The notes under the pieces were generated by a model. The model was given only the letters and a program-made list of their open reading frames with translations, made no database searches and was not told the DNA's origin. A DNA stretch of 64,000 nt from contig NZ_MRBY01000003.1 in assembly GCF_001904615.1 (NCBI RefSeq), positions 1 to 64,000 of the forward strand, written 5' to 3'. This DNA comes from [Limnothrix rosea] IAM M-220 (GTDB lineage Bacteria > Cyanobacteriota > Cyanobacteriia > Cyanobacteriales > MRBY01). The translations under genes were made by a program, and so were the position numbers. Within the stretch, counting starts at the first letter, position 1, and every line of letters begins with the position of its first letter. This document shows positions 8,768 to 19,227 of the stretch, one piece after another.

Positions 8768-9544
8768 CTAAAATTTCATTTCAAGGTTGAACGACAATAC
8801 TGCGTCAGGCGCATCTTCACTCAGTCCGAATAGCAACGCGACTCTAGGTTCAAGCACACGATCTTTACCAAGGCTAGTTTCAAAGTAAGCCGCAGGGCCA
8901 ATAAAGTGAGATTGCTCTTCGGTACCGCCGAAAAATTCTTCCAATTCGCCATAGGCTTCGATGCCCAACGAAACAGATTCACTGACAGGAGTAGAAGCGC
9001 CGAAAGCGTAAGCCAAGCCTGCGTCTTCATCTTCGAAAGGAATCTCAACGATGAGATTACCAATCAGGTTAACGTCGCCAACGGTGACTTCTCCGATCGG
9101 GCCAATTTCAAGGGCACCTTTATCAATACCACCTTCATTGGGGATTTCAAGCCCGGCAAAAAGACCAAAAGCACTGCCATGTCCGTGACCGTCATGATCC
9201 TCGTCATCATCATGACCATGCTCTTCTTCACCTGATGTAAATAGAAACACGTTCGTGAACTCAATGCCTTCAACTTCTAGGTTGCCGCCTTCGATATCTG
9301 CTAGCTCAATCGCGAAAGTCGGTTTCCAGAAATCAGTAACGCCATAGCCAAGAGCAAACTCAAAAGCTGCCGCTTCTTCTCCATCTTCGACCTCGCTAAG
9401 GGTAACGCCTGAAAGGGCTTCAAGTTTGAACTTGCCTTTGTCTACATCGGGGTGAATGATTTCAAAGACTTGTGCCTGTGCGGAAGTAGCCTGGAATGCC
9501 CATAGGAACAGACCCGGCAAAAATATTTTTTTTAGTGACACCAT
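8768..9544 (-). CDS. His-rich outer-membrane beta-barrel protein, putative metal-related
   Basis: This is a 258-aa secreted protein. A signal peptide (about 1-24, ending AQAQ) is followed by alternating short beta-strands typical of a small outer-membrane barrel, and the protein ends in FNLEMKF with a terminal aromatic. Near residues 107-123 it carries an acidic, His-rich loop (EEEHGHDDDEDHDGHGHG) suited to binding divalent metal. A Fur/Zur-like box lies about 70 bp upstream (9616-9634). I do not recognise a named family. Control by iron or zinc and a role in metal passage across the outer membrane are inferred from the loop, the box and the neighbouring metal genes. Confidence 0.7.
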   Translation of the reverse strand: MVSLKKIFLPGLFLWAFQATSAQAQVFEIIHPDVDKGKFKLEALSGVTLSEVEDGEEAAAFEFALGYGVTDFWKPTFAIELADIEGGNLEVEGIEFTNVFLFTSGEEEHGHDDDEDHDGHGHGSAFGLFAGLEIPNEGGIDKGALEIGPIGEVTVGDVNLIGNLIVEIPFEDEDAGLAYAFGASTPVSESVSLGIEAYGELEEFFGGTEEQSHFIGPAAYFETSLGKDRVLEPRVALLFGLSEDAPDAVLSFNLEMKF

Positions 9545-9979: not shown

Positions 9980-11548
9980 TTAGAAACTAAATAGAGTACG
10001 AATCGTACCGACAACAACGCTGTCATTGCTGTCATCGTGGTTTGGAGAAGTTAACCAAACAAGACCGGGCGTAATGGAAATGTTGTCGTTGATGGGGTAC
10101 TGATAGAAGGCTTCGATGTGAAGTGAAGTATCAGGATCTTCAATCGAAGCACCGTTGAATGTGATGTTGGAGTCCGTGACGCGAGGCTCCATACCAACGA
10201 TCAATCCACCGAGGGCACCATCTTTGCCGAGGTCTGGTAACGCCACAGTGGCTGCCCAGTTCCAAACTTCCGCAGAACCATCCGTTACCGCCGCTGTGCC
10301 ATCAACAGTCTCGATGTCGCTGTAGCCAACCCAGCCGCCGAGGACAAATTTATCGGAAATAGACCAAGATGCCTGAACACCAAAGGAGTTTGCTGTGGTG
10401 TCGACAGTATTGCCAGTTAATTCACGGAGATTTGAGTTGTTGCTACCAGTACCGGTATCGCTGAGGTTGTAGCTGTTGACATAGGTCAACCCTAGCTCGA
10501 AGCGATCGCTCGGTGTGAAGTGAAGCTGGGCTAATGCGCCATAAGCGCCGTTAAATAAACCATTACCGCCAGAAGGATCATTGGCATCGGGAGCCATGTA
10601 GCCAACGCCCAGATTTACTTTGTCGCTGAAGGAGTAGTTGAGGCCAATACCTTTATCTTCGATGAGGTAATAGATTGGGTTTCTCGTACCAAAGGCAGTA
10701 ATCGAACCTTCGTTACCATCGCCATCGAGGAAGGGATTAACTGTACTTGCAAAATCATCAGACGCACCAGCATTGGCGGCGATCGCCACCTCTAGTTTGT
10801 CGCCGATGGGAAAGGCATAGACTAAAGCATCAACTTCGACATCATTACCATTGTCGCCAGCAAAGCCCAAGGTTCCTTCATTGGTTCCAATGTCGGGAGA
10901 GTTTAGATTTTCAGCAAGCAAACGTACACGAAGATTGTCTTCGCCAGTGAAGCTTGTGTCCAGGTTCAAACGGACACGATTACCGAAGGTGACTTGATCA
11001 TCGTCTGCTGCACCGCCTGTTCCGGCGATCGCCGCAAAAATAACTTTCCCTTCCAGTTTTGTTGTGGTGGAAAATTGGTGATCTTCGAGAAATTCAACGC
11101 GACCCTCAAGATCATCGACACGAGCACCAAGGGTTGCCAGCTCTGCTTCAAATTCTTGAACAAGTGCGCGAAGACGAGTGATATCTGCTGCATCAACGTC
11201 AGTGCCGCCACCCACAATCAAACGCTCAATTTGCTGCAGACAAGCGTTTAGGCCTGCTGCAAACTCGTAACGGCTGAGGGGACGGTTGCCGCGAAAAGTA
11301 CCATCGGGATAACCGACAATGCAGTTATATTTTTCGACGAGATTACGCAGTGCATCAAATGCCCAGTCGCTGGGTGCAACATCCCGCAGTTGGAAAACGC
11401 TGTTGACCTGACCAAGGTCGCCGCTACTTTGGGTCAATAGATCATCCTGCATAGACAAATAGTCTGTCTCAAGGGCGATCGCCTCAGAAAGAGAGCCGCC
11501 AACCAAGGCGATTGTCATCGCTGTCGTGACTCTAAATAGACTTTTCAT
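9980..11548 (-). CDS. Iron-uptake-type porin (SLH + OprB domains)
   Basis: This 522-aa cyanobacterial porin is related to the SomA/SomB type. It has a signal peptide (MKSLFRV... ending EAIA), an SLH domain near 50-110 (DVAPSDWAFDALRNLVEKYN and YPDGTFRGNRPLSRYEFA) that binds the peptidoglycan-linked polymer, a coiled coil near 125-160, and an OprB-like beta-barrel to the C-terminal FSF. The start is the ATG with AGGAG 8 nt upstream; longer starts lack a ribosome binding site. Such porins carry inorganic ions and are called iron-uptake porins in this phylum. The iron-related neighbours agree with that. Confidence 0.88.
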   Translation of the reverse strand: MKSLFRVTTAMTIALVGGSLSEAIALETDYLSMQDDLLTQSSGDLGQVNSVFQLRDVAPSDWAFDALRNLVEKYNCIVGYPDGTFRGNRPLSRYEFAAGLNACLQQIERLIVGGGTDVDAADITRLRALVQEFEAELATLGARVDDLEGRVEFLEDHQFSTTTKLEGKVIFAAIAGTGGAADDDQVTFGNRVRLNLDTSFTGEDNLRVRLLAENLNSPDIGTNEGTLGFAGDNGNDVEVDALVYAFPIGDKLEVAIAANAGASDDFASTVNPFLDGDGNEGSITAFGTRNPIYYLIEDKGIGLNYSFSDKVNLGVGYMAPDANDPSGGNGLFNGAYGALAQLHFTPSDRFELGLTYVNSYNLSDTGTGSNNSNLRELTGNTVDTTANSFGVQASWSISDKFVLGGWVGYSDIETVDGTAAVTDGSAEVWNWAATVALPDLGKDGALGGLIVGMEPRVTDSNITFNGASIEDPDTSLHIEAFYQYPINDNISITPGLVWLTSPNHDDSNDSVVVGTIRTLFSF

Positions 11549-11784
11549 GAAAAACTCCTTACACACAAAATGTCTGGTCGTCCAAACCTCCAAGTGACTC
11601 ACATACACACGGCTGCACTTTGGATGACAGACTAAAAACAGGAAAAATGGATCACATCAACTGCAAATAATTGGCAATTAAGTCAAAGTCAAGATTACGA
11701 AAAAATCCTCCCAGTGTCAACTTTATTGAGAAACTTTAGATATAAAGCCGTTCATTTATGATGGAGCGAAGTTGTCTAAAGCTG

Positions 11785-11810
11785 AAAAAAGATAAGTCTA
11801 AAAGGCTTAT
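11785..11810 (-). terminator. Terminator overlapping the stop codon of the PKHD hydroxylase gene
   Basis: The minus strand has the stem ATAAGCC / AGACTTAT followed by CTTTTTT. The stop codon TAA lies inside the left arm, so the terminator starts within the coding sequence. Confidence 0.6.
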
Positions 11811-12466
11811 TCTGACCACATTCTCGTAAGATTTGCGACGCTTTTAGAGAGCAGGTCAAATTCATTGGTTTTGCCAGATTGCGCGAAAAGACTACGGCGT
11901 GTCACTTCAAGGTCAAATAAAATTTCGCGGTGTTGAGGATCGCGAATATAGCTCTGAATCCAGCCGACAGCCACTAGGCGCATCCCTGAAGTGACTGGAT
12001 TAACGCGATGCAAGCTTGTCGAAGGATAGGCGATCACATTCCCCGCAGGGAGTTTATAGCCCTGTTCTGCATCGGCACTTTCGATGACTAATTCACCACC
12101 TTCATACTCGTCGGGTTCGTTAAGAAATAGCGTAAAGGAGACATCAGAGCGCATGCCTCCCATCAGGGCATTATCGGTGTGGCGACCGTAGGACATCCCT
12201 GTGTCGTAGCGACTAAACAGCAGGGTATGAATGCTTTTTGGACGAATTCCAGATTGCACGAGGGGATGGTCGTTTAAGGCTTTTTTGACTTGCCGTTTGA
12301 GACTATCTGCTTGTGGAGTTTTAGAGATAAGCTGCTGATTGTTTTTAACAAGTTTGGCATGCCAACCCGCCGTTAATTTACCATCTATAAACTCCGCTGA
12401 CTCCAGCACTGTGAGGATATCAGCGATTTCTTCTGGGGTTAAAACCTGAGGGATGGCAAACAGCAT
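11807..12466 (-). CDS. Fe(II)/2-oxoglutarate dioxygenase, PKHD-type hydroxylase
   Basis: This is a 219-aa member of the PiuC/YbiX family. The 2-His-1-carboxylate facial triad is visible as HTD in YGRHTDNALMG (near 98-100) and the distal His in YPSTSLHRVNPV (near 160). The following RLVAVGW supplies the 2-oxoglutarate arginine. GGELVIESAD and LPAGNVIAYPS are typical of the family. Members often lie beside outer-membrane iron transporters, and the porin and Bfd neighbours fit this. The start at MLFAIPQVLTPEE matches family members; a TTG 48 bp upstream is less likely. Confidence 0.92.
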   Translation of the reverse strand: MLFAIPQVLTPEEIADILTVLESAEFIDGKLTAGWHAKLVKNNQQLISKTPQADSLKRQVKKALNDHPLVQSGIRPKSIHTLLFSRYDTGMSYGRHTDNALMGGMRSDVSFTLFLNEPDEYEGGELVIESADAEQGYKLPAGNVIAYPSTSLHRVNPVTSGMRLVAVGWIQSYIRDPQHREILFDLEVTRRSLFAQSGKTNEFDLLSKSVANLTRMWSE

Positions 12467-12558: not shown

Positions 12559-13380
12559 TTAAAGATTCGATTCGATCTCAACAATTAAATTCAAAACTTC
12601 TTGGGGTGTCTTGACTGGCGTTTCGGGAGGCATTGGTGCAGGCCAAGCTGTTTTTAAATCGGTAAACGCTGTGGCGATCGCTGCACTTGCGTCTGCGTCT
12701 AAATCACCAGCAACTTTCTCAAATAACATTTCGCCATACATGACAAAACCACGAGAATCTTGGTACTCGACTGCTTCAACGAATACGCCATCGGCAATGG
12801 ATGCCGCATATTCTTCCCCAGCTACCACCAGTAAATTTTTCACCACATCCATCACAAACTCAGGCTCTCCAAGGTATTCATCACCCAGTTGGGCGATCGC
12901 CCCATCCACCGCAGCAATAGAAGCATCCAAACTAGTCACCAGTTCAGGAGATTCGGGCGAAGTTTTGACAATGTCATGGGCAGCATTCAAAGTATCTTTA
13001 AAATCCTCAACACCCCGTTCCGGCAACTCATCTTCGATATCACCATAAATTTCCTCGACAGGATGACCAATGTGAGGTTCAGATTGCTCAAATTCACCTG
13101 CCGCGACAAGCTCTTCAGCAACCATGAGGTGACCTTTCATCAAGCCTAGAGCCGTCATATAGTCGATATCAGGGTTCCCACTAGCCGCACCTTCACCGCC
13201 CTCGCCGCCTTCGCCACCATGGCTATGCCCAGACTGATCCTTTTCTTTTACTTCTTCCGTTGTTGCAGCTTCATCACCCTCTGCACCCCCACTAACTTCA
13301 GGAGTCGGAGTACCACAGGCACCAAGGCTGGCCGCTAGCCCTAAGGCAAGAAACATCTCAACAGGTTTAATGGGTTTCAT
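12559..13380 (-). CDS. Periplasmic lipoprotein with His/Gly-rich linker, unknown function
   Basis: This 273-aa protein begins with a lipoprotein signal peptide (MKPIKPVEMFLALGLAASLGAC; the lipobox cysteine lies near residue 22). A low-complexity linker includes SGHSHGGEGGEGGEG and is followed by a mostly helical domain of about 200 residues. The helical part has conserved-looking polar motifs such as KGHLMVAEEL, EPHIGHPVEEIYGDIEDEL and YQDSRGFVMYGE, with His, Glu and Asp placed as possible metal ligands. I do not recognise the family. It lies head-to-tail downstream of the multicopper oxidase (177 bp gap). A role as an anchored metal carrier or oxidase partner is inferred. Confidence 0.7.
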   Translation of the reverse strand: MKPIKPVEMFLALGLAASLGACGTPTPEVSGGAEGDEAATTEEVKEKDQSGHSHGGEGGEGGEGAASGNPDIDYMTALGLMKGHLMVAEELVAAGEFEQSEPHIGHPVEEIYGDIEDELPERGVEDFKDTLNAAHDIVKTSPESPELVTSLDASIAAVDGAIAQLGDEYLGEPEFVMDVVKNLLVVAGEEYAASIADGVFVEAVEYQDSRGFVMYGEMLFEKVAGDLDADASAAIATAFTDLKTAWPAPMPPETPVKTPQEVLNLIVEIESNL

Positions 13381-13557
13381 AAAATTAATCAAAATAATTT
13401 GCAATAAGAGAATAAAAGCCAAGGCTAATTTTAATATTATTAATTGTCAATAATTGACTGGCTAGACAGCTCCTCAAATATTTGTTGTTCAGTGTTTTTT
13501 CAGTGGGTGGTATGAGCTAGCGCGTCACGGTAAAAAAATGTGAATTGAGTCAGATTT

Positions 13558-14586
13558 TTAAGCTTCTGATGGAGAGAGCACATCAAAAAAGCCCATGCAA
13601 CCATGTTCGGCAATGTAGTCTTGGTGGGGATGAAACATATATTTGCCAGTGAAGGGGTAGGCAAATTCGAGAATGTGGCGTTCTGCAGTTCCCATTGTCA
13701 CCACATCGCTTTCCTCATTGGGAGTTAATGTGCGGCCTGTGCGATAAAGCTGGAAAAAGTTGGCGTGTATATGGAACGTTACTGCCACATCAAATTCGAT
13801 CATATTCAGGATGTATAAGCGCACCAATTGATTTTGGACAATCGGAATTGGGCGATCGCGGAAAACATTAGGAATGCCATTGAAGGCATAGAGCTCATTT
13901 TTTTCGTCATTGTTAATGTCATAGCCTCCCATCACAAGAACCATTTCATCGGCGGGCGGGCGACCTTCTGGCGGATCAATAATGAACATCCCAAATAGGC
14001 CTTTACCAATATGGCGTGTCACTGGTGCAACATGGCAGTGGTAGAGATGAACACCATAGGGCATCGCATCAAATTCGTAAACCATTGTTTTCCCGTGGCG
14101 AACTGGTTTGACACCGTCCATTTCTTCTGGATGAGTCCCATGGAAATGGAGTGTATGGGAATGTCCGTCTGCATTGTGAAAAATAATGCGGAGGCGATCG
14201 CCTTCCGTGGCTCTGAGGGTGGGGCCGGGGACGCGGCGGTTAATATTCCAACTTATATACTTAATAGCTGCATTAAGGTTAATCTCGGTGCTATTCGCTT
14301 CAAGATGATACACACGTATCTTGCGGCCCTCTTCTTCAATTACCTCACCATAATTAAAATCACGAAGAACCTGCATCGGGTCAAAACCATTTTGCTCGAT
14401 GCTTTGTCGATCAAGCTCCACCGGAGGAATTTGTGCGGCATTGGCTTTTAGCGGTTGAGCCCAGAAGTTTCGATAGGCAGCGGCGGCGATCGCACTAACC
14501 CCAAATCCCGCTAATCCCCCGAGAAAGAAATGGCGGCGATCTAACTGTCCCGAAAAAAAATTCCTAGGAAATTTGGACATATACAT
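13558..14586 (-). CDS. Multicopper oxidase (two-cupredoxin type), exported
   Basis: This protein of about 342 aa begins with an RR-containing signal (DRRHFF followed by a hydrophobic stretch), which suggests Tat export in folded, copper-loaded form. Two cupredoxin domains carry the copper-ligand motifs: HTLHFHG near 145, HLYHCH near 180, HIHANFFQL near 265-275, and the C-terminal FHPHQDYIAEHGCMGFF. Likely substrates are Fe(II), Mn(II) or phenolics. The local context (Bfd, bacterioferritins, porin, mntCAB) favours a ferroxidase or manganese-oxidase role, which is inference. The start lies among MLLMYMSK; the ATG at 14586 or 14580 is equally possible. Confidence 0.88.
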   Translation of the reverse strand: MYMSKFPRNFFSGQLDRRHFFLGGLAGFGVSAIAAAAYRNFWAQPLKANAAQIPPVELDRQSIEQNGFDPMQVLRDFNYGEVIEEEGRKIRVYHLEANSTEINLNAAIKYISWNINRRVPGPTLRATEGDRLRIIFHNADGHSHTLHFHGTHPEEMDGVKPVRHGKTMVYEFDAMPYGVHLYHCHVAPVTRHIGKGLFGMFIIDPPEGRPPADEMVLVMGGYDINNDEKNELYAFNGIPNVFRDRPIPIVQNQLVRLYILNMIEFDVAVTFHIHANFFQLYRTGRTLTPNEESDVVTMGTAERHILEFAYPFTGKYMFHPHQDYIAEHGCMGFFDVLSPSEA

Positions 14587-14740
14587 CAAAAGCAAATTAT
14601 GAAACCGAAATGCTCCTCTCGAATAAGTCTTTGATAGTTTTATTTTTTTCTTCTATCTGGTTACTTTCTCGAACCAAAAAATGTTCATTTGTAAAAAAGA
14701 ATTATTTGTAATGAGAAGGCTTCTAGCTAGTCAAACAATA

Positions 14741-14755: not shown

Positions 14756-14959
14756 CTAAGACATTCCGTTCGAACAGGAACCTGTAGACGCACTATTATT
14801 ACCGAGCGTTTCTAGAAGTTCACAGGCATAGGCCATGCAAGTGCCGCAGTCGGCTCCTACTCCTATCGTTGCTGTTAGCTCTTGGGGAGAACAGTTTTGC
14901 TGGGATACTGTTTGACGAATTTGCTTTTCGGTAATTCCACGGCAAATACAAACGTACAT
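14756..14959 (-). CDS. bfd: Bacterioferritin-associated ferredoxin
   Basis: Bfd is a small [2Fe-2S] protein that reduces the bacterioferritin core through haem and so releases stored iron. The 67 aa contain the four-cysteine pattern MYVCICRGIT (C4, C6) and GADCGTCMAYA (C-x2-C near 38-41). A basic face for bacterioferritin docking is plausible in ITEKQIR. The tail has extra Ser/Cys (STGSCSNGMS) beyond the core. It is transcribed away from the two bacterioferritin genes, which begin 219 bp on the other side, so one intergenic region could coordinate storage and release. Confidence 0.93.
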   Translation of the reverse strand: MYVCICRGITEKQIRQTVSQQNCSPQELTATIGVGADCGTCMAYACELLETLGNNSASTGSCSNGMS

Positions 14960-15177: not shown

Positions 15178-15642
15178 ATGCAAGGAAAATCTGCCATTAA
15201 TGTGCAACTTAATGCTGTACTAAAATCACAACTAACAGCGATTAACCAGTTCTTTCTTCACGCGAGAATGGCCAAGAACTGGGGTCTAGAAAAGCTCAAC
15301 GGGCAGGAATATAAATATTCAATTAAGGCAATGAAGCAGGCCGATGTCTTAATTGAGCGAATTCTGTTTTTTGGTGGCTTGCCAAATCTCCAGAGTTTGG
15401 GTCGCTTGATGATCGGTGAAGATGTCCCAGAAGTGCTCAGTAATGAGTTGGCGACGGCTCAGACAATCCGTACTGAGTTGGCTGCTGTGATTCAATTTTG
15501 CGAGCAGGAGCAGGATTATGTCAGCCGCGACCTACTGTCAGAAATCTTAGAGGAAACAGAGGAGCAAATTGACTGGTTTGAGACGCAGCAATGGCTCATT
15601 GAAAATTCTGGTTTGCAAAATTATTTGCAATCTATGGTTTAG
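15178..15642 (+). CDS. bfr: Bacterioferritin, haem-binding subunit lacking ferroxidase ligands
   Basis: This 154-aa four-helix subunit aligns along its full length with bacterioferritin (AINQFFLHARMAKNWGLEKLN). The haem-ligand Met52 is kept in IKAMKQAD. The di-iron centre is lost: the E18, E51, H54, E94 and H130 positions read Q, A, Q, A and Q. This matches the split bacterioferritins known from cyanobacteria, where one subunit type brings haem and the other brings the ferroxidase site. The partner gene follows 43 bp downstream and the two are probably co-transcribed. Confidence 0.92.
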   Translation: MQGKSAINVQLNAVLKSQLTAINQFFLHARMAKNWGLEKLNGQEYKYSIKAMKQADVLIERILFFGGLPNLQSLGRLMIGEDVPEVLSNELATAQTIRTELAAVIQFCEQEQDYVSRDLLSEILEETEEQIDWFETQQWLIENSGLQNYLQSMV

Positions 15643-15685: not shown

Positions 15686-16153
15686 ATGAAAGGTAATCAA
15701 AAAGTCCTAGAACAATTACATAAGCTTTTGCGTAATGAGCTTGGTGCTAGAGATCAGTATTTTACGCATTCGCGCATGTTTCAAGATTGGGGCTTGAATA
15801 AGCTCTATGAGCGGATTGACCATGAGATGCAGGATGAAACTGCCCATGCGGCACTGTTGATTGAACGGATTCTTTTTTTGGAAGATACGCCGGATCTTTC
15901 TAGTCAGCCGGGCTTGAATATTGGTAAGACTGTGCCTGAGATGCTTCAAAATGACCTTGATTATGAATATAAGGTGGTGGCAGATCTCAAGGAGGCGATC
16001 GCCGTGTGTGAGACGGAGCAGGATTATCAAACGAGAGAAATTTTGTTACCGATTTTGACGGATACAGAGCAAGACCATGCTTACTGGCTGGAGCAGCAAC
16101 TAGGTCTGATCGAAAAGATTGGCCTACAAAACTATCTGCAATCGCAAATGTAA
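15686..16153 (+). CDS. bfr: Bacterioferritin, ferroxidase subunit lacking the haem ligand
   Basis: This 155-aa subunit keeps the di-iron ligands: E18 in RNELGARD, E51 and H54 in DETAHAAL, E94 in DLDYEYKV, and the ExxH pair in TEQDHAYW. The haem methionine at position 52 is replaced by Thr. It should oxidise Fe(II) and lead iron into the mixed 24-mer with the haem-binding partner upstream. Both subunits end in the shared GLQNYLQS motif. A terminator follows at 16175-16216. Confidence 0.93.
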   Translation: MKGNQKVLEQLHKLLRNELGARDQYFTHSRMFQDWGLNKLYERIDHEMQDETAHAALLIERILFLEDTPDLSSQPGLNIGKTVPEMLQNDLDYEYKVVADLKEAIAVCETEQDYQTREILLPILTDTEQDHAYWLEQQLGLIEKIGLQNYLQSQM

Positions 16154-16254: not shown

Positions 16255-17133
16255 CTAGGAAATGGACTCTGGCATATCGGGCTTAACGATACGTTTAGTG
16301 AGTACGCCATATTTCGGTGCACAGAACATGGTTACAACAAAGATCAGTGATAGCAAAACGACAATGGAGCCACCAGTCGAAATATCGAGGTGATAGCTCA
16401 AATAGGTTCCCATGATGCAGGAAAAGATGCTGCTGGCGCTGGAAATCCAGAGCATGTGATCAAATCTATCGGTCAATAGGTAGGCGATCGCCCCCGGCGT
16501 GATCAGCATGGCGATAACGAGAATAATGCCAGCGGTTTGTAGGGCAGCAACGATAGTGAGAGCTAAGACTGACAGCAATGTGTAATACATCGTCTGGGTA
16601 TTGAGACCAATGGCTTTGGCGTGGTTTGGGTCAAAGCAAAATAAGAGTAAATCTTTGCGCCTGAGCAGAATAATTATCAAGGTTAATGTGCCAGCAATTA
16701 GGGTTTGGATAATATCACTCTGGGAAATGCCGAGAACATTACCAAACAAAATATGAAAAAGATCAATATTGCTGGGGATTTTGGTGACGAGTACTAATCC
16801 AAAGGCAAAAAATCCCGTAAAGACAACGCCAATGACGGCATCTTCCTTTAGCCTCGTGGCTGATTTGACATAGCCGATCGCCACGGTTGCCCCAAAGCCA
16901 AACATAAAGGCACCGATGGCAAAGGGAATATTGAGGGCGTAGGCGACAACGACACCGGGTACAACGGCATGGGACACCGCATCGCCCATGAGCGACCAGC
17001 CCTTTAGGGTGATATAGCAGGATAAAACGGCACAGACTAGGCCGACAAAGGCACTGACCCAAATGGCTTTTACGAGAAAACCATATTGCAATGGTTCTAT
17101 GATCCAGTTGGTGATATTTACTAAGGCGCTCAT
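16255..17133 (-). CDS. mntB: Manganese ABC transporter permease
   Basis: This 292-aa polytopic membrane protein of the ABC-3 (ZnuB/MntB) family has about eight hydrophobic segments. The conserved MGDAVSHAVVPGVVVAY lies near 50-66 and the cytoplasmic DLLLFCFDPNHAKAIGLNT near 160-180 contacts the ATPase. The start codon overlaps the end of the ATPase gene by 4 bp (ATGA), so translation is coupled. Manganese rather than zinc is assigned because the binding protein in the operon closely resembles Synechocystis MntC. Confidence 0.93.
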   Translation of the reverse strand: MSALVNITNWIIEPLQYGFLVKAIWVSAFVGLVCAVLSCYITLKGWSLMGDAVSHAVVPGVVVAYALNIPFAIGAFMFGFGATVAIGYVKSATRLKEDAVIGVVFTGFFAFGLVLVTKIPSNIDLFHILFGNVLGISQSDIIQTLIAGTLTLIIILLRRKDLLLFCFDPNHAKAIGLNTQTMYYTLLSVLALTIVAALQTAGIILVIAMLITPGAIAYLLTDRFDHMLWISSASSIFSCIMGTYLSYHLDISTGGSIVVLLSLIFVVTMFCAPKYGVLTKRIVKPDMPESIS

Positions 17134-17915
17134 GCGTCAACCTCGGATTGGCTGGGTTTTTGGGTCAGTTGTTGTAAGCTGCTCATGGGTAAACCGCCAA
17201 AGGTCATCACGAGATTATCTTCGGTAAAGGTTTCGGCGGTGGTCCCTTCTGCAAGGATTGTTTTGTTTAATAAAATTGTGCGATCGCAGAATGTGGAGAT
17301 CGAGGCGAGATCGTGGGTTGAAACGAGAATGGTGTGGCCTTCGTCCCGCAATTGTAAAAGTAAATCAATGATGCTTTTTTCGGTTTTGACATCCACGCCA
17401 GTAAAGGGTTCGTCGAGCAAGATTACCTTGCCTTGCTGTGCTAGGGCTCGTGCTAAAAATGCCCGTTTTTTCTGACCACCGGACAATTCTCCAATTTGGC
17501 GATCGCGGAACTCCACCATGCCGACGCGATCTAAACTTTCCATCACCAAACGACGATCCTTAGCGCTAGGAATTCGCAGTAAGTTCATGTAGCCATAGCG
17601 TCCCATCATCACGACATCGAAGACACTCACCGGAAAATCCCAATCCACTTCATCGGACTGGGGCACGTAGGCCATGAGCTGTTTTTTCTGGGCTTTTTTG
17701 ACGGAATGTCCGGCGATCGCCACCCGTCCTTCCGTGGGTTTGAGGAAACCCATAATCGATTTAAACAAAGTTGATTTGCCGCCACCATTGGGGCCGACAA
17801 GTCCGGTAATCCTACCGGGTTCAACATGGCAATTGGCGTTATACAGCGCTAGGCGAGTGTTGCTGTAGGTGACGCTGAGGTTTTGGACTGTGATATCTAG
17901 GAAAGAGGCAGTCAT
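17130..17915 (-). CDS. mntA: Manganese ABC transporter ATP-binding subunit
   Basis: This 261-aa ATPase drives Mn(II) import. Walker A GPNGGGKST lies near 42-50, the signature LSGGQKKRAFLARAL near 143-157 and Walker B VILLDEPFTGVD near 163-174, followed by the switch histidine in VSTHD. It is the middle gene of mntC-mntA-mntB, with 54 bp to mntC and a 4-bp overlap with mntB. Confidence 0.94.
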   Translation of the reverse strand: MTASFLDITVQNLSVTYSNTRLALYNANCHVEPGRITGLVGPNGGGKSTLFKSIMGFLKPTEGRVAIAGHSVKKAQKKQLMAYVPQSDEVDWDFPVSVFDVVMMGRYGYMNLLRIPSAKDRRLVMESLDRVGMVEFRDRQIGELSGGQKKRAFLARALAQQGKVILLDEPFTGVDVKTEKSIIDLLLQLRDEGHTILVSTHDLASISTFCDRTILLNKTILAEGTTAETFTEDNLVMTFGGLPMSSLQQLTQKPSQSEVDA

Positions 17916-17969
17916 GGTCGTTTCGGTGGGTGGAGGTTTAGGAATAAAAAATCAAAGGAGAAAAACGGG

Positions 17970-18956
17970 TTAATCGCTTTGGGTTTGGCTCCCGGCTAAT
18001 AAACCGTTAGCAATGGTGCGCGCGTCATATTCGAGGAGCTGAAGATAGCTGGGGACAGGGCCTTCTGCTGTGGAGAGGGAGTCGACGTAGAGGTTGCCGC
18101 CAAATCTTGCTCCCGAAGCCTTTGCCACTTCTTTTTGTCCTTCATCGCTCACGGTGCTTTCACAGAAAATTGTCGGCACATTATTTTCTTTTACTGCTTC
18201 AATGACCGTTTGCACCTGCTTGGGCGTAAATTGTTGTTCGGCATTAATCGGCCAAATGTAAATTTCCTCTAGGCCGTAATCTCGCGCGAGGTAGGAAAAT
18301 GCCCCTTCGCAACTAACGAGGTAACGCTGCTCTGCTGGCACAAGGCTTAAGTCTGTTTCCAGTTGGTCGGCGATCGCCTGAATTTCTGCACTGTAGGCTT
18401 CAGCATTCGCGGCATAATAATCAGCATTCTCCGGGTCAAGTTCTGTGAACGCTTGACGAATATTTTCGACATAGATCAAGGCATTTTTCGGTGACATCCA
18501 AGCGTGGGGATTCGGCTTATCGGTGTAGGGGCCAGAGCCAATGGGAATCGGTTCAATGCCTTCGGTGAGCAGGACTGAGGGCACATCCTCAAGGTTGCCG
18601 AGAAATTGCTCAAACCACCGCTCAAGGTTCATGCCGTTATACAAAATCAAGTCGGCATCCTGCGCCCGCACTAGATCGCTGGGTGTCGGTTCATAGCCGT
18701 GAATTTCTGACCCAATCTTTGTGATGGACTCCACAATCAGGCGATCGCCCGCCACATTTTTGGCAATATCCGCAAGGACACTAAAGGTCGTTAAAACTTT
18801 TTTTCGGTCGTCTTGCTCTGTCGCTGTTGTGCTGATTTCCGATTGTTCAGCGGATGTGGAGACCTCGGCTGTTTCTGGGCTACAACCCACTAACCATAAA
18901 CCCAAGAGTACGCTAGACAGGGCGATTTTTTGGCGAAAATGCGGTACGAAAACCAT
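17970..18956 (-). CDS. mntC: Manganese-binding periplasmic lipoprotein
   Basis: This 328-aa cluster A-I solute-binding protein has a lipoprotein signal ending LWLVGCS. The sequence is very close to Synechocystis MntC, with long shared stretches such as EIHGYEPTPSD, NGMNLERWFEQFLGN, PNPHAWMSPKNA and FCESTVSD. The metal ligands are expected to be the His in EIHGYEP, the His in NPHAWMSP, a Glu in SCEGAFSYL and an Asp near YVDSLS. The ATG at 18956 gives a normal signal peptide; an upstream TTG would add five residues. It is the first gene of the operon. Confidence 0.95.
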   Translation of the reverse strand: MVFVPHFRQKIALSSVLLGLWLVGCSPETAEVSTSAEQSEISTTATEQDDRKKVLTTFSVLADIAKNVAGDRLIVESITKIGSEIHGYEPTPSDLVRAQDADLILYNGMNLERWFEQFLGNLEDVPSVLLTEGIEPIPIGSGPYTDKPNPHAWMSPKNALIYVENIRQAFTELDPENADYYAANAEAYSAEIQAIADQLETDLSLVPAEQRYLVSCEGAFSYLARDYGLEEIYIWPINAEQQFTPKQVQTVIEAVKENNVPTIFCESTVSDEGQKEVAKASGARFGGNLYVDSLSTAEGPVPSYLQLLEYDARTIANGLLAGSQTQSD

Positions 18957-19227
18957 GACGAAACAACACAATATGAAAAAACATTGTGATTATTGTCTCA
19001 TTTTTCTTTCATATTTGTCGGGCGATCGCCTCTAATCTTGCCTCTCGTAATAATCTGTTACATGTTGGACTGGAACTGTAAAGTAGTCTGAGAAGGCTTT
19101 TTACAAAAATTACTGAGCATGAAATTGGAGGCGACATTTCCTTTCGGCAAAAGCATTCATTGCAGAGCTAAGTTTTAAGGCTGAGATCTACAAAATCGCT
19201 ACTCTTTGACACAGTTTATCGGCTACT

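Follow-up and report, generated by a model that had tools for sequence, protein, structure and literature searches.

A multicopper oxidase and an undescribed lipoprotein as a candidate iron uptake pair in cyanobacteria

Genes at the locus

The window analyzed here is a stretch of 64,000 nucleotides from the genome of [Limnothrix rosea] IAM M-220. Its minus strand carries, in this order, genes for a Bfd-like ferredoxin, a multicopper oxidase (MCO), a lipoprotein, a dioxygenase of the PiuC/YbiX type and a porin of the SomB type (Table 1). The original prediction had described a Tat-like MCO followed by a lipoprotein, and both genes are indeed found there on the minus strand, with an intergenic gap of 177 bp. 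By annotation, the locus of the two genes is an iron neighborhood. The complete ABC-3 metal transporter nearby was considered as the missing permease and rejected as a general partner, because L061 is the only other locus in which all three of its parts accompany the pair.

Table 1. Positions and strands of the annotated features around the oxidase and lipoprotein genes
Feature	Positions in the window	Strand	Remarks
Iron uptake porin, SomB type	9980-11608	minus	NF033921
Fe2+-dependent dioxygenase, PiuC/YbiX type	11807-12466	minus	Next gene after the lipoprotein
Lipoprotein, undescribed family, proposed periplasmic iron carrier	12559-13380	minus	ATG 13380, 273 aa
Multicopper oxidase (MCO), Tat-type two-domain, proposed ferroxidase	13558-14595	minus	Pfam and PDB sequence matches
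Bacterioferritin-associated-ferredoxin-like protein	14756-14959	minus	Fer2_BFD
Bacterioferritin	15178-15642	plus	
Bacterioferritin, second copy	15686-16153	plus	
Complete ABC-3 metal transporter, Mn/Fe or Zn type	16255-18971	minus	Permease, ATPase and substrate-binding lipoprotein

The genome contains a single close MCO and a single lipoprotein of this family, both of them in the window. It also encodes FeoB and one FTR1 permease, the latter on another contig (C40) and unlinked to the pair, and no M75 protein was found in it. The nearest named relative at the locus, in the scan described below, is Picosynechococcus sp. PCC 7117, whose lipoprotein is 66% identical. At 8768-9544 on the minus strand, the window additionally encodes a protein that has a start resembling a signal peptide, a stretch rich in His and Asp (HGHDDDEDHDGHGHG) and no Pfam or NCBIfam family. 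PCC 7117 also has a counterpart of it close to the pair (L071), with 93% identity across the aligned part.

The open reading frame of the MCO (13558-14595) encodes 345 aa, with an ATG at 14586 or at 14580. Two Pfam domains score above the cut-off, Cu-oxidase_2 (E 8.2e-22) and Cu-oxidase_3 (E 2e-19), with one best stretch each. The closest solved structure by sequence is 3gdc (E 3.5e-85), followed by 7rab (E 2.9e-74), and there is a more distant resemblance to copper nitrite reductases. The twin-arginine pair, Cys186 and ten histidines (His146, 149, 151, 185, 187, 194, 274, 276, 321 and 323) are invariant in all 18 aligned homologues. We take Cys186 and the ten histidines to be a complete ligand set, sufficient for a type-1 site within domain 1 as well as for a trinuclear center between the domains. 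We infer that Fe(II) is the substrate. No Fur box stood out 5' of the MCO gene, where the best match (12 of 19 positions) is ordinary for the window; over 107 upstream regions, the mean Fur-box score was 12.3, compared with 11.7 for shuffled sequences.

The lipoprotein has a putative LGAC lipobox with Cys22, read from the sequence, a linker (SGHSHGGEGGEGGEG) and a helical domain spanning residues 66-273. The linker had been described as His/Gly-rich; it is in fact rich in Gly and Glu, with two His. Similarly, the helical domain had been described as rich in His, Asp and Glu. It is acidic and has a small conserved set of His, Glu and Asp residues, and it is not generally His-rich. The domain is modeled with eight main helices at a pLDDT of 97.4. 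In our reading of the helix list and of the structure matches over either half, the eight helices would make up two four-helix bundles, one after the other.

No family in Pfam or NCBIfam could be assigned to the lipoprotein, and no convincing match was found among PDB sequences. A scan of one genome per species, which may omit the window's own genome, returned 392 related stretches, and the best 80 of these all come from cyanobacteria, judging by their titles. An additional helix-hairpin-helix domain (HHH_3) was seen in 19 of the 37 lipoprotein homologues of alignment A1. For instance, the lipoprotein at L105:5608-6684 has an HHH_3 domain, with weak similarity to PsbU, between its leader and its helical domain.

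Co-occurrence and genomic neighbors of the pair

We assessed the co-occurrence of the two families across 386 sampled cyanobacterial genomes, taking MCO matches at E values up to 1e-30. The lipoprotein was matched in 71 genomes and its helical domain in 68; matches to the leader or linker only (G005, G213 and G266) were dropped. The MCO was matched in 69 genomes and was close in 65, the distant or fragmentary matches in G294, G372, G123 and G121 being dropped; restoring them gives 69 genomes with the MCO and 65 with both proteins. The lipoprotein domain and a close MCO occur together in 64 genomes, that is, in 64 of the 68 with the domain and 64 of the 65 with a close MCO. Lipoprotein homologues that commonly lack the oxidase would have spoken against the original prediction, and this is not what the sample contains.

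The exceptions are few. The lipoproteins without a close MCO are fragments in G051 and G121 and divergent proteins in G054 and G118. The sole close MCO without a lipoprotein (G193) begins at a distance of 286 bases from a contig end. These terminal bases include a frame resembling the lipoprotein leader of the congener G344, and the contig ends within this putative leader, directly past the MCO. In 58 of the 64 pair genomes, no more than 6 kb separates the two genes, which share a strand in 56 of these; the remaining six have them at least 6.2 kb apart or on separate contigs. The MCO gene is upstream of the lipoprotein gene on the same strand in 73 of 80 named loci, and for three of the other seven less than 300 bp of contig was available on the MCO side.

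We clustered the neighboring proteins of 120 fetched loci, which are partly redundant and come from named and unnamed sets that partly overlap. A membrane protein occurs in 66 of these loci and a small protein in 62, all encoded on the lipoprotein strand. The cluster representatives identify the membrane protein as FTR1 (E 6.6e-59) and the small protein as ferritin-like (E 2.2e-19). FTR1 is downstream in all 66 fetched loci that have it, with the ferritin-like gene intervening in 59. Other neighbors of the lipoprotein include a PiuC-type gene (21 of 120 loci, 19 on the same strand), a porin of the SomB kind (15) and FeoA (7). Small proteins without a Pfam match are encoded between the MCO and the lipoprotein at L096:3924-4565 and L117:4413-4886, and their clusters are found in 11 and 10 of the 120 loci, respectively. 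Part of PMC6116882 reports co-expression of the bacterioferritin-like NpDps5 of Nostoc punctiforme with the gene of an iron permease, a result that would concern the ferritin-FTR1 part of the pair operon.

At the level of genomes, 45 of the 64 with the pair encode an FTR1/EfeU permease within 1.1 kb of it, on the strand of the pair. FTR1 is found elsewhere in 11 of the 64, and none was found in eight. Conversely, FTR1 is present but the pair absent in 51 of the remaining 322 genomes. Because of these eight and 51 genomes, neither partner needs the other, and the pair is not strictly tied to FTR1. The notion that the lipoprotein replaces an absent permease is not supported, given the FTR1 on contig C40 and the permease beside the pair in 45 genomes. 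The broader proposal of a metal oxidation and uptake pair fares better, with the co-occurrence and with FTR1 and ferritin-like genes following the pair in many relatives, except that a permease belongs to the picture.

Outside the cyanobacteria, only three plasmid records matched the lipoprotein, from Indioceanicola (39.7% identity over 74% of the query), Roseovarius (29% over 53%) and Deinococcus (24.5% over 55%). The Deinococcus relative is immediately followed by FTR1. In Roseovarius the next gene is of the PiuC type, which is also the arrangement in the window. The Indioceanicola relative is followed by L197:7637-8986, a MauG-type di-heme protein fused to a cupredoxin, which is possibly another oxidizing enzyme. 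When the same plasmids were searched for the MCO, those of Indioceanicola and Roseovarius gave distant matches only (best E 7.6e-16 and 1.3e-12) and that of Deinococcus gave none. Non-cyanobacterial relatives of the MCO (L209, L210 and L211) lie on plasmids of Deinococcus, Rubrobacter and Rhodococcus, where they adjoin ZIP or unspecified metal transporters and metal-dependent regulators. No lipoprotein match was found on these plasmids, the Deinococcus plasmid being a different one.

A candidate metal site and the relation to EfeO and imelysin

Seven residues of the lipoprotein (His84, His103, His106, Glu110, Glu190, Glu205 and Asp208) are highly conserved: 67 or 68 of 69 homologues have each of them, and all seven are also present in the Indioceanicola, Roseovarius and Deinococcus relatives. 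Alignment A3 omits L051 (in-frame stop) and L070 (contig end) from 70 non-redundant homologues, and alignment A7 uses 58 of 69 members. From this conservation, we propose the seven residues as a putative metal site. The original prediction had looked to the modeled lipoprotein for a metal site, and what emerged is this candidate set within a confidently predicted helical domain.

Losses among the seven residues are confined to L049 (genome G054), which has lost five, and L047 (G118), which has lost four. These are the two full-length homologues from genomes without a close MCO. Four homologues of about the same divergence (L045, L046, L048 and L050), all from genomes with an MCO, have lost none of the seven. 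The genus of G054 also includes G324 and G366, and both retain the MCO and an intact site. Tyr191, Tyr206 and Gln207 are invariant even in the two decayed proteins. A search of the 19.5 kb surrounding each decayed lipoprotein gene revealed no remnant of the MCO. These two cases, few as they are, suggest that the candidate site and the oxidase are retained together.

According to parts of PMC9174327 and PMC3143127, EfeO and EfeM each consist of two bundles and carry HxxE and ExxE metal motifs. In our reading of the model, the helix order of the lipoprotein would be compatible with theirs. We considered membership of the imelysin family, for which there is a likeness by eye (ExxE versus HxxH, KISGEE versus KI...EYQD, and the lipoprotein leader), but the profile scores are weak and we do not assign the lipoprotein to it. 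The window lipoprotein does not match PF09375 (Peptidase_M75). Weak matches to this profile were obtained for seven of 69 homologue domains (best E 3.9e-5), and one of them scores 18.3 bits against a cut-off of 23.5. The GxHxxE motif is found in none of 120 lipoprotein homologues; helix 2 of the window protein has H106-x-x-E109, of which E109 is not invariant.

Profile comparison with hhalign against 17 M75 proteins gave an E value of 9.5e-4, and none of 40 shuffles scored as high, the FTR1 control also being just above its shuffles. The M75 score was 31.7 with a narrower query and 30.6 with a wider one. The FTR1 control reached 20.2 with the wider query (shuffle maximum 19.8), and with the narrower query one of 40 shuffles scored as high; the ferritin control fell within its shuffles. 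EfeO alone also fell within its shuffles, with two of 60 as high and, separately, five of 40, or three of 40 with the wider query. The imelysin-type set was equaled by none of 60 shuffles, and the imelysin-type and combined sets by none of 40 each.

Neither the whole domain nor its C-terminal half had a structure match at E values up to 0.001, and the matches obtained were mostly common helical bundles. In the Foldseek search with the whole domain, EfeO (7wgu) ranked sixth (E 1.3, TM 0.40) and Algp7 had an E value of 3; EfeO was absent among the 50 VIA-align matches listed for the domain. Homology of the lipoprotein to EfeO and imelysin is thus suggestive only. Given the unmet Pfam cut-offs, the lack of GxHxxE, the EfeO score within shuffles and the lack of a clear fold match, we describe the lipoprotein as a protein that would work like EfeO and not as being EfeO. 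The pair and true M75 proteins do not exclude each other in the sample, as an M75 match is present in three of the 64 pair genomes (24 of 386 overall).

Some imelysin/EfeM-type proteins (G213:C1:64361-65512, L174-L176 and L178) have leader motifs such as SLGAC or KLWVGIGA-like sequences and a GGEGG linker, resembling those of the lipoprotein family. The G213 imelysin, for instance, is 52% identical over residues 2-69, with a similar lipoprotein leader and Glu-Gly linker.

Proposed role of the pair and comparison with known systems

In our view, the pair probably makes up the periplasmic part of an iron uptake relay driven by oxidation, in which a ferroxidase and an iron carrier supply FTR1. 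The MCO would oxidize Fe(II) using O2, and the lipoprotein would bind the iron at His84, His103, His106, Glu110, Glu190, Glu205 and Asp208. It would then hand the iron to FTR1 in the inner membrane, which would import it, and the bacterioferritins or ferritin would store it. Gene presence and adjacency, co-occurrence, residue conservation and a confident fold prediction were observed; metal binding, hand-over to FTR1 and the direction of transport are inferred.

Other roles can be drawn from the same genes. The pair may serve iron detoxification, with the MCO oxidizing Fe(II) against Fenton chemistry, the lipoprotein sequestering the ferric product and import being secondary. This is consistent with the eight pair genomes without FTR1, with the ferritin-like neighbors in 62 of 120 loci and with the link of NpDps5 to light and oxidative stress tolerance given in part of PMC6116882. 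We nevertheless hold it to be unlikely, because the same-strand FTR1 in 45 of 64 genomes and the FTR1 beside the Deinococcus relative indicate transport. The lipoprotein could also help to load copper into the MCO or to assemble it, and be no iron carrier. The near-perfect co-occurrence of the two proteins, and a His-containing site that decays in the two cases where the MCO is missing, would both fit such a role. The site is intact, however, in the Deinococcus relative beside FTR1, on a plasmid without an MCO match, and no lipoprotein match accompanies the MCO relatives on plasmids of Rhodococcus and Rubrobacter and on other plasmids of Deinococcus, which makes this role improbable.

The metal itself could be manganese, because the non-cyanobacterial MCO relatives examined adjoin ZIP or unspecified metal transporters, together with metal-dependent regulators, in three cases. 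The pair would then take part in Mn(II) oxidation or in discrimination between Mn and Fe, and the ABC-3 transporter of the window is of a type that would suit this. Its complete set accompanies the pair in just one other fetched locus, whereas FTR1, ferritin, PiuC, the iron porin and FeoA recur instead (66, 62, 21, 15 and 7 of 120 loci), and we give manganese as small a chance as the copper role.

Cyanobacteria need much iron, and an oxidation-driven uptake relay would offer them a specific enzyme and carrier for the re-oxidation step, present in 64 of 386 sampled genomes and with a named residue set. One undescribed family with a putative metal site joins three phyla. Tentatively, and with rather less confidence than we attach to the relay, the system might represent a third type of bacterial FTR1 importer, in which a multicopper ferroxidase and a new family of carrier lipoproteins serve re-oxidation and delivery, and in which the carrier can pair with other oxidases (Indioceanicola) or adjoin FTR1 (Deinococcus). 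Among the matches listed in the part of the literature covered, no title or abstract start describes the pair.

The relay is best read as working like Fet3/Ftr1 and EfeUOB while belonging to neither. In the yeast scheme, as given in parts of PMC9174327 and PMC7676907, FTR1 acts with the Fet3 oxidase. Many pair genomes resemble this Fet3p-Ftr1p system (OFeT) in having a multicopper oxidase and an FTR1 permease. Fet3p has three cupredoxin domains (part of PMC9174327), whereas the window MCO is a Tat-type two-domain protein; moreover, the cyanobacterial system adds the lipoprotein, and FTR1 is unlinked in the [Limnothrix rosea] genome. The likeness to EfeUOB and EfeUOB-M lies in an FTR1 permease and an exported helical protein with conserved acidic and His residues. 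The cyanobacterial oxidase differs in being an MCO, whereas EfeB of EfeUOB is a DyP-type peroxidase, and site IV of EfeM is ExxE where the lipoprotein, aligned by eye, has HxxH.

An EfeU working with a copper-type oxidase was proposed earlier for Leptospirillum. The partners named in the relevant part of PMC2631029 are a cupredoxin and a kelch-motif protein, and that part does not mention such a lipoprotein. In cyanobacteria, FTR1 import is described as following iron reduction and re-oxidation, the latter by oxygen (part of PMC7676907), and uptake through cFTR1 is the subject of Xu et al. 2016, whose title is cited in PMC11221513. For this cFTR1 route, the relevant part of PMC7676907 names no dedicated ferroxidase or carrier; the cyanobacterial pair would add both.
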